Source of the DNA: Desulfurivibrio dismutans
Lineage (GTDB): Bacteria; Desulfobacterota; Desulfobulbia; Desulfobulbales; Desulfurivibrionaceae
DNA length: 64,000 bases
Assembly (NCBI RefSeq): GCF_029210385.1
Contig: NZ_JARGDQ010000009.1
Location: forward strand, 1 to 64,000
Reading direction: 5' to 3'
The first letter of the stretch is position 1. The number at the start of each line of letters is the position of its first letter. The notes beneath the pieces were generated by a model. The model was not told the origin of the DNA, did no database searches, and was given only the letters and a program-made list of their open reading frames with translations. The translations under genes and the position numbers were made by a program. Below, one piece after another: positions 47,430-50,600 of the stretch.

Positions 47430-49087
47430 GGCCCTCCTCCCGCAAGAGTCCCGGCCGGCGGCAGCCAGCCGGCGGGCAGACCGCCGCCGGCAATTTCCAG
47501 GGTGAGCCAGGGGAACAGGCCCAGCAGGATGCCGGCCAGGGCCAGCAGCAGAGGGGGCCACTGCATAAAAAGCGGCGCGGCGAAAACGGCGACCGGTTGG
47601 CCGGTGACCTTGGCTGTTTGCCGGTGCCGGGCCGGCCGGGAGAAGGTGGCGGTGACGGGGCGCAGCAGATAGGCGACGCTTAGCAGGCTGCCGCCGATGA
47701 TGGCCAGGGTCCACCACCACTGGCCGGCCTCCATGGTGGCCAGCAGCAGGTACCACTTGCCGATGAAGCCGGAGCTGGGCGGTAGTCCCATCAGGATCAC
47801 GGCGGCCAGGGATATGGTGATGGCGGTCAGCGGTAAGCCTTGGCTCAAGGCCCGGAGATCGCTGACCAGCAGGGGGCGGTCTTGGTTGCCGGGGTTTTGC
47901 GGAGCGGCTTGCGGATCGCCGGTTCGGCTGTTGCTCGGGGGGGCGGTTGGTTGCTGTTGGCCCTTGGCTTTGGAAGGGCACTCCCCAGGGGCCAGGCGAG
48001 GGGTGGGGACAATATACTGCTGGACGGTGCCGGCGGCCAGGAATAAGGCGGTTTTGGCCAGGGCGTGACCGGCCAGGATAAAGAGCAGGCCGTAGAGGGC
48101 GGCCTGGGGGTTGGGGCCCAGCAGCAGGGGGAAGGCCAGAAAGAGGTAGCCCATCTGGGCCACGGTGGAGTAGGCGATTAACTCTTTTAAGGCCTGGCTG
48201 CGCAGGGCCTGCAGGGAGCCCCAGAACACCGCCGCCGCCCCCAGGCCGCCCAGCAGTTGAAAGGCGGCGAAAAGTTCCAGGTCGGCGTGTTGCCACAGCG
48301 GCAGCCAGAGCTTGAGCAGCAGGTAAAGAGAGGCCTTGACCACCAGGGCGGAGAGCAGGGCGCTGGCCGGCGCCGGGGCGTTGGCGTGGGCCGGCGGCAG
48401 CCAGAAGTGGAGAGGGAACAGGGCCGATTTTATGATCAGTCCCAGGGTCATGCCGGCCAGAGCCAGGCGGACCAGCGGATCGGGGGTGGTAAGTTCGGTG
48501 AACAGGGCCAGGTTTAATGAGCCAGTCTGGCGGTAGATCAGTATCACCCCCAGCAGGAAACAGAAGGAACCAAAGATATTCAGCAGCAGGTAACGCAGGG
48601 CGGCCTGCCGGGCGGCGGCTGTACCGGACAGGCTCACCAGGCAGACCGCCGCCAGCCCCAGCAGTTCCAGGCCGACGTAAATATTGAACAGGTCGGCGCT
48701 GAGCAACAGACCGTTGAGGGAGGCCCAGAGCACCAGCCAGAGCGGATAAAAGTAGGTCAGCCGACGGTCATGGGCCGGCGATTGGAAATAACCGGGGCTG
48801 TACAGGCCGACGGCGATATTGATCAGGGCGGTCAACCAGAGCAGCCAGAGGCTCAACCCGTCGGCGGCCAGGCCGATGCCCACTTCCGCCGCCCAGCCGC
48901 CCAGGGGGTAAAGCAGTTGTTCCTGTTTGCCCAGGTCGCCGGTCAGCAAGGCCAGCAGCGTCGCCGTTCCGGCCATGGTGACCAGGCCGCAGAAACGGTT
49001 CCAGCGGGGGGCGGCAAAGGCCAGGATGGCCGCGGCCAGCGGCAAGGCGATCAGCAGGATCGGCCAGGGCGGCGGCAAGGGACTCAT
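47426..49087 (-). CDS. mrpD: MrpD/MnhD-like antiporter subunit
   Basis: 553 residues, inner membrane. Key features: LFNIYVGLELLGLAAVCLVS (TM5 Glu), LGLIIKSALFPLHFWLPPAH (TM7 Lys), APAPASALLSALVVKASLYL (TM8 Lys) and KELIAYSTVAQMGYLFLAFP. A polar insertion of about 40 residues (CPSKAKGQQQPTAPPSNSRT and on, near residue 370) interrupts the membrane part and is unusual for MrpD. Start and stop overlap the adjacent genes by 4 bp each (mrpC before, next subunit after). Part of Na+/H+ exchange driven by the membrane potential. Confidence 0.9.
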   Translation of the reverse strand: MSPLPPPWPILLIALPLAAAILAFAAPRWNRFCGLVTMAGTATLLALLTGDLGKQEQLLYPLGGWAAEVGIGLAADGLSLWLLWLTALINIAVGLYSPGYFQSPAHDRRLTYFYPLWLVLWASLNGLLLSADLFNIYVGLELLGLAAVCLVSLSGTAAARQAALRYLLLNIFGSFCFLLGVILIYRQTGSLNLALFTELTTPDPLVRLALAGMTLGLIIKSALFPLHFWLPPAHANAPAPASALLSALVVKASLYLLLKLWLPLWQHADLELFAAFQLLGGLGAAAVFWGSLQALRSQALKELIAYSTVAQMGYLFLAFPLLLGPNPQAALYGLLFILAGHALAKTALFLAAGTVQQYIVPTPRLAPGECPSKAKGQQQPTAPPSNSRTGDPQAAPQNPGNQDRPLLVSDLRALSQGLPLTAITISLAAVILMGLPPSSGFIGKWYLLLATMEAGQWWWTLAIIGGSLLSVAYLLRPVTATFSRPARHRQTAKVTGQPVAVFAAPLFMQWPPLLLALAGILLGLFPWLTLEIAGGGLPAGWLPPAGTLAGGGP

Positions 49088-49398
49088 TTTCCCGGCTCTC
49101 CCCGGTCAGCGTCCCGGTCCCGGCGGTGTTCTTCTTCCTTTGCCCGAGCGGCCAGGGCCAGGGCGAAACCGGTGATGCTGACGGTGATTACGATCCCGGT
49201 CAGCACCAGGGCGTGAAGAACCGGGTCGGGGTCGCCGTCGGGGTTGTAAGCGACACTGATCATCAACAGAAAGATGCCGCTGCCGCAGATATTAACGGCC
49301 AGAATCCGGTGCAGCAGTTCCTGGCGGGTAAAAAGTGCCACCAGACCCAGCAGAAACAGCATCAGCCCGGTGATCCCATAAAGCAGAGCGGCACTCAT
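49084..49398 (-). CDS. mrpC: MrpC/MnhC (NuoK-like) antiporter subunit
   Basis: 104 residues, three membrane helices in the NuoK fold. The conserved VALFTRQELLHRILAVNICG and GSGIFLLMISVAYN, followed by DPVLHALVLTGIVITVSITG, match MrpC, where the DPxxxALVLTxIVI segment is diagnostic. The C-terminus is highly charged (KEEEHRRDRDADRGEPGK). Overlaps the fused B subunit and mrpD by 4 bp on each side. Confidence 0.92.
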   Translation of the reverse strand: MSAALLYGITGLMLFLLGLVALFTRQELLHRILAVNICGSGIFLLMISVAYNPDGDPDPVLHALVLTGIVITVSITGFALALAARAKEEEHRRDRDADRGEPGK

Positions 49399-50600
49399 CG
49401 CTGTTCCTCCGCCGCCGGCAAGCGGCGTTCGGGGGCGTGTAACTGTTCATCAGGAGGGACAACAGCCTGCTGATTTAAAGGCTCGCGACCGAACAGCCGT
49501 GCCGCAGATTCGGGTAAGCCGCCAGGCGCCGAGTACCCCCTGTACGCAAGCCTGGCTGATCGCCCGCGCGGGATAAAGCGTGCCAGTACCTCTTGCTTTC
49601 GCGACGGTATTTGGCGGCCAAGGTTACCAGAGCTTGGCCAGTCGGCGCTAGCCGCCGACAAGGTGCGGTGCGGCTGTTTGGTTGTGGGGGCGCCGGCGTC
49701 GGGCAGCAAACATAGAGCCAGGCCGATGGAAATGGCCGCCGTCGCCTCAATGGCCAGAATAAAGGCCCCGGCCTGCTCCGCAGGATACTGGAAAAAGAGT
49801 TTGCCCATGGCTAATGGCACGGCGGCCAGCCCGAGAAAGATCAGGGAGCCGCCCACCAGGGTGGCCCGCAGCAAGGGCCGGGGACAGAAACTCGGCAGGG
49901 GCCGACCGGCCAGGGCCAGCAGAATGCCGGCGGCCCCCAGTACTGCCCCGCCCTGAAAGGCGCCGCCCGGTGCGTGTTCCCCCAGCCAGACCAGGTAGCC
50001 GGCCACCAGGATGGCAAAGGGCAGAATCCCCCGGATCATGGTCAATAGAATGGGGTTGACCGCCATCCCCGCCGGTGGGCGGGCCGCCCGGCCCAGGGAC
50101 CAGATCCCGATCACCGCCAGCAGCAGCACCGCCAGTTCCAGCAGGGTGTCAAAGCTGCGAAAGTTGAGCAGCACGGCGGTCACCTGGTTGCTCACTCCGC
50201 TCAACGGCATGGCCTCGCTGGTAACCGCCGCCGGCCCCAGCCGCGAGGCGGGATAAGACCACAACAACCATCCTCCCACCCCCAATAACACCAGGGCCCC
50301 CAGCCCACAGGTAAAAACCGCCCACCAGGGACCGCTTGCCGCAGGATCTGGCGCTGCTGGACGTTTAAGAAGACCGAGGTAGGAGAGGAGCAGCGCTCCG
50401 CTGATCCCGGCCCCGATGGCCGCTTCGGCCAGGCCCACCTCCAGAGCGTCCAGGCGTACCCAGGCCAGGGCCATGACCAGTCCCAGGGCGATGAACAGCA
50501 CCACGGCCCGAAACTTATCCCGGCTGAACAGCACCGCCCAGGCCAGGCCCAGCAGAGTGACGGCCAGGGTAATATCCAGCCCCCAGGTCAGCAGATTCAT
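49395..50600 (-). CDS. Fused MbhD-MbhE-MnhB antiporter subunit with repeat-derived tail
   Basis: 401 residues. Residues 1-75 match the MbhD/DUF4040 unit (DALEVGLAEAAIGAGISGAL). Residues about 92-165 match MbhE (SNQVTAVLLNFRSFDTLLEL). Residues about 175-300 match MnhB/MbhF (NPILLTMIRGILPFAILVAG, EHAPGGAFQGGAVLGAAGIL). In standard Mrp the first two belong to the MrpA C-terminus. The linker at residues 79-90 is a half family A element, and residues about 307-371 are encoded by an interrupted family A copy. The true membrane protein ends near residue 306; the last 95 residues look like an acquired tail. Coupled by 4-bp overlaps to both neighbours. Confidence 0.87.
   Translation of the reverse strand: MNLLTWGLDITLAVTLLGLAWAVLFSRDKFRAVVLFIALGLVMALAWVRLDALEVGLAEAAIGAGISGALLLSYLGLLKRPAAPDPAASGPWWAVFTCGLGALVLLGVGGWLLWSYPASRLGPAAVTSEAMPLSGVSNQVTAVLLNFRSFDTLLELAVLLLAVIGIWSLGRAARPPAGMAVNPILLTMIRGILPFAILVAGYLVWLGEHAPGGAFQGGAVLGAAGILLALAGRPLPSFCPRPLLRATLVGGSLIFLGLAAVPLAMGKLFFQYPAEQAGAFILAIEATAAISIGLALCLLPDAGAPTTKQPHRTLSAASADWPSSGNLGRQIPSRKQEVLARFIPRGRSARLAYRGYSAPGGLPESAARLFGREPLNQQAVVPPDEQLHAPERRLPAAEEQR
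49488..49682 (-). repeat. Family A palindrome, copy j, interrupted, inside coding sequence
   Basis: The left part (49488-49566) runs from ACCGAACAGCCGTGCCGCAG through the core GAGTAC-cccct-GTACGC to GGCTGATCGCCCG. The distal arm CAAGGTGCGGTGCGGCTGTT lies at about 49659-49680. Between them are about 92 bp of other sequence with faint likeness to family D (CTTGCTTTCGCG, CCAGTCGGCG). Everything is in frame with the fused B subunit. Confidence 0.75.
50332..50367. repeat. Half family A element inside the fused B subunit
   Basis: The 36 bases from CCGCTTGCCGCAGGATCTG to CTGGACGTTTA match one arm of copy m (55643-55678) with few changes. They encode the linker LLKRPAAPDPAASG between the MbhD and MbhE units. 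Confidence 0.65.

Follow-up and report, generated by a model that had tools for sequence, protein, structure and literature searches.

In Desulfurivibrio dismutans, one gene of an Mrp-type operon, coding for a subunit of a sodium/proton pump, joins MbhD, MbhE and MnhB domains in a single chain, and two stretches of that chain are written by palindromic repeats. Did the repeats create the fusion by inserting at old stop codons, as the original prediction had it, or did they land in a gene that was already fused? The window analysed here, a 64,000-nucleotide stretch of contig NZ_JARGDQ010000009.1, holds 13 stretches of the palindromic family, two of which lie inside the fused Mrp gene (Table 1).

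Table 1. Coordinates of the fused Mrp gene, its domains and its two repeat insertions in the window.
Feature	Position	Strand	Basis or context
Fused Mrp subunit gene (MbhD-MbhE-MnhB), 401 aa	49395..50600	(-)	Mrp-type operon
MbhD domain, residues 15-79	50364..50558	(-)	Pfam PF13244
Half of 108-bp palindromic element, linker residues 78-91 (LKRPAAPDPAASGP)	50329..50367	(-)	Profile; complete in-frame copy in G002
MbhE domain, residues 126-178	50067..50225	(-)	Pfam PF20501
MnhB domain, residues 184-278	49767..50051	(-)	Pfam PF04039
5' copy of 8-bp target duplication, GCGCCCCC	49686..49693	(-)
Composite tail element, 247 bp, residues 306-388	49439..49685	(-)
Composite element, left arm	49660-49685	(-)
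Composite element, segment B (~93 bp), in the left hairpin	49567-49659	(-)
Composite element, palindrome remainder and 3' extension	49439-49566	(-)
3' copy of target duplication, ACGCCCCC	49431..49438	(-)
Probable original C-terminus ERRLPAAEEQR and stop codon	49395..49430	(-)	Flanks joined

Two in-frame insertions in a fused Mrp subunit

The stop codon of the fused gene overlaps the start of a downstream mrpC-like gene (49084-49398). Nine membrane helices are predicted in the product, which places the linker after helix 3, in the loop leading to helix 4, and the tail after helix 9; the charge pattern predicts that both face the cytoplasm. The AlphaFold model renders the linker as a low-confidence loop and the tail as mostly disordered (mostly pLDDT <60), and coding scores are low in the parts that derive from the repeats.

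The linker between the first two domains had been predicted to be encoded by a half-repeat, and this was borne out, with the boundaries now given in Table 1. A profile derived from 59 copies of the family gave the linker half 16.7 bits, compared to at most 10.8 bits in 1000 codon-shuffled genes. The closest ortholog found, in a sister species (genome G002), carries a complete 108-bp element at the identical linker position and in the same orientation and frame; the linker peptides of the two species align as KRPAAPDPAASGP and KRSAAPHLAAIGP. Excision of the 108 bp from the G002 gene yields LGRLHRSSARFARVAVFF, still in frame and with a linker of 17 residues. The element is translated in its stop-free frame, avoiding its own TAA, and no clear target duplication was found for it.

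For the tail, an interrupted copy at residues 307-371 had been proposed; the interruption is real and consists of segment B, but the boundaries are those of a larger composite element. The tail core (49490-49564) scored 51.9 bits with the 59-copy profile, and a model of a longer element type scored 94.5 bits and extended to nucleotide 1162 of the gene. The two copies of the target duplication are identical at 7 of 8 positions. Insertion and duplication together add 247 + 8 = 255 bp, which is divisible by 3. With the flanks joined, the sequence reads ...LCLLPDAGAPERRLPAAEEQR directly followed by the stop, in the same frame, so that the insertion sits 11 codons before an unchanged stop codon. 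Once the element is removed, 16 residues remain after residue 300, within the homolog range of 6-35. Segment B also occurs in at least three other composite copies of the window species' genome, G000, while no member of this composite subfamily was found in G002 among the matches listed by the DNA search.

An IS66-related MITE is the probable source

Copies of the family were sought in genomic DNA by scoring at most 40 candidates per genome, and family copy numbers are minimum values. Tail-type copies are longer than the palindrome, carrying a 42-nt extension that ends in ..GAACGGTTAC. Among the complete copies of this longer type, 10 of 14 are bounded by 8-bp duplications matching at 7 or more positions, and no mismatched cross-pair reached 7. 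Most family copies have neither the 3' extension nor visible duplications, and the 108-bp copies showed no consistent target duplication at 0-3 nt, with a handful of duplications seen when the offset was close to 42 nt. At G000:C31:106227-106574, three family copies stand head to tail with a spacing of ~120 bp.

The family appears to be a MITE related to IS66. G000 contains one full-length IS66 (C3:88595-91016; L251:2096-4517) with ends GTAAGCGCTCA.., whose inverted-repeat ends, GTAAGCGCTCAATGAACC and GTAAGCGCTCAGCAAACC, match the ends of the palindrome; the G002 copy of IS66 is partly deleted. The ends of the elements match the IS66 inverted repeat at a mean of 11.4 of 14 positions (73 core ends) and 10.8 of 14 (28 outer ends), the chance of a match of at least 11 of 14 being ~5e-5. 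IS66-family inverted repeats start with GTAAGCG and are associated with 8-bp repeats (PMC11946415). The present elements resemble IS66 insertion sequences and their derived MITEs in having GTAAGCG ends, 8-bp duplications and a full-length resident IS66, and differ from the insertion sequences in being 108-247 bp long and devoid of a transposase. We infer that the IS66 transposase may mobilise them. No duplication is visible around the resident IS66 copy of G000. A RAYT/Y1 transposase was also considered as mobiliser and rejected: RAYT-mobilised REP elements flank a Y1 transposase gene, whereas no copy of the present family was found closer than ~2 kb to any Y1_Tnp gene tested, in either G000 or G002.

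Of the 59 family copies (L031-L090), at least 26 have the stop codon of the upstream gene at the edge of the element, mostly as the TAA of its GTAA terminus. The proposed preference for stop codons therefore holds for the family but not for the fused Mrp gene, in which the linker element is read through and the tail element left the stop unchanged. In-frame copies within well-supported genes account for ~3 of ~90 loci examined (mrp linker, mrp tail and recB), as classed with thresholds that were loosened after the initial setting had missed a known case. The recB case is a G002 recB-like gene with a tail-type element in frame (L220, G002:C1:843015-843114), the G000 ortholog of which (L234, G000:C30) is devoid of the element.

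The fusion most likely predates the repeats

Homologs were collected from 258 genomes of the order and from GTDB representatives. The three-domain chain occurs many times in this set without the repeat, and the element was found in none of the relatives examined. Of the best 80 ranked database relatives, 79 are encoded by a single ORF, although the ranking rewards long matches and therefore favours fused genes. Among 93 fused homologs without the repeat, the linker measures 17-40 residues (median 24), a range that includes the G002 linker minus its element, and 6-35 residues (median 15) extend beyond residue 300, in line with the expectation that homologs end near residue 306.

The trees imply about five changes between fused and split states, with the split genes of the order appearing derived, and Desulfurivibrio is placed among lineages that most likely descend from a fused ancestor. 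A simple two-state model in which the two focal species were hidden gave a probability of ~0.9999 for the fused state at their attachment node, a value that we take as qualitative because the sample is biased and the branch long: the ortholog was sampled in two species only among the genomes searched, and their immediate ancestor is unsampled. Many relatives within the order (L004-L011, L110-L123) encode MbhD and MbhE-MnhB separately, often with the two genes overlapping, and these split pairs appear to be derived fissions.

Fusions of such subunits have been described previously, namely Pyrococcus MrpB (MbhD+MbhE), MbsE (MbhE+MbhF) and the C-terminus of MrpA (PMC8415708, PMC7419157). NCBIfam NF009161, 'monovalent cation/H+ antiporter subunit B', spans residues 14-273 of the present protein. 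MrpB-type fusions and members of NF009161 likewise unite the same domains in one chain, and do so without repeats; the present protein differs in scoring below the NF009161 cut-off (96.6 bits against a curated 272) and in its long repeat-derived tail.

The proposal that insertion at old stops fused an MbhD gene to an MbhE-MnhB gene and also made the tail draws on the split genes of the order and on the stop codons that so many family copies provide at their edges. It draws as well on a genome of the same family, G022, where a separate MbhD gene ends close to the position of the half-repeat, but the G022 gene groups elsewhere on the tree. Repeat-free fusion is moreover the common state, the linker element is read in the frame that avoids TAA and leaves an intact linker upon removal, and the tail insertion did not touch the stop. 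We regard the proposal as very improbable and consider that the protein was most likely already fused when the repeats landed. What survives of it is that the linker and most of the tail are repeat-derived, the tail insertion having occurred upstream of the stop codon rather than at it.

Probable shared insertions and reciprocal loss in two species

The tail of the G002 protein, QQVFAPDEPLP, was compared with the 3' extension of the element. The two match at 22 of 32 nucleotides (P = 0.0005 by tail shuffles; P = 0.003 when the whole gene is considered), a score of 22/32 that is not attained by any of 79 homolog tails; the remnant is short and was not significant by profile search alone. The likeliest reading is that the tail derives from a single shared insertion whose palindrome has since been lost in G002.

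The competing view holds that the site in G002 is truly empty, that the tail element arrived after the split and that the two species share the linker insertion only. An empty site in G002 was our initial reading, as global alignment shows a clean tail block absent from G002. The lack of the segment-B subfamily among the G002 matches agrees with it. However, judged by its target duplication and its standard 3' extension, the element ends inside a segment common to G002, and this segment matches the extension beyond chance. Given the longer form of the element, the duplications and the remnant, we dropped the empty-site reading and now consider it unlikely. Since G002 has the whole linker element and a probable tail remnant, both insertions most likely predate the split, each lineage having since trimmed a different one.

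We thus favour, as a probable account from sequence comparison, a history in which, ahead of the split between the window species and G002, two copies of a non-autonomous, IS66-related palindromic MITE would have inserted in frame into the already-fused Mrp gene. Both sites, the C-terminal tail and the loop joining helix 3 to helix 4, are predicted to tolerate changes in length. Later, little of the linker copy would have been kept in the window lineage, while in G002 the tail copy would have been stripped of its palindrome; what is left of each copy stays in frame.

The original prediction called the repeats domesticated. A gained function of linker or tail, for example in regulation or in contact with another subunit, would accord with the open frames at both sites in both species and with their predicted exposure to the cytoplasm. 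Yet the two species have each shed the bulk of a different insertion, what peptide sequence is left has diverged, and prediction gives a mostly disordered tail, which makes domestication doubtful and a new function improbable. The added peptides rather appear to be tolerated passengers that are slowly eroding, and reciprocal erosion in two species offers a way to examine whether insertions of this kind serve the protein or are simply tolerated.

Comparison with the palindromic elements of Rickettsia

A repeat at a domain junction need not be the cause of the fusion, and the locus provides a concrete case outside Rickettsia in which mobile palindromes add in-frame sequence to a conserved ion pump. 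It is possible, though we advance this tentatively, that a free-living bacterial genus harbours an IS66-related MITE that time and again adds in-frame peptides to core proteins (mrp twice, recB), as the Rickettsia elements do, and whose TAA ends supply stop codons to many other genes. If so, the MITE would recurrently reshape the loops and termini of proteins. PMC10969869, summarising Ogata et al. (2000, 2002), puts roughly half of the R. conorii copies of the Rickettsia palindromic elements within genes. As described there, those elements resemble the present ones in being palindromes of ~100-150 bp that lie in frame in unrelated conserved genes (here mrp and recB) and add a peptide to the product. 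The present family differs in that it belongs to another organism, has ends linked to IS66 and is rarely found within genes (~3 of 90 loci), and so does not share the frequent intragenic location of the Rickettsia elements.
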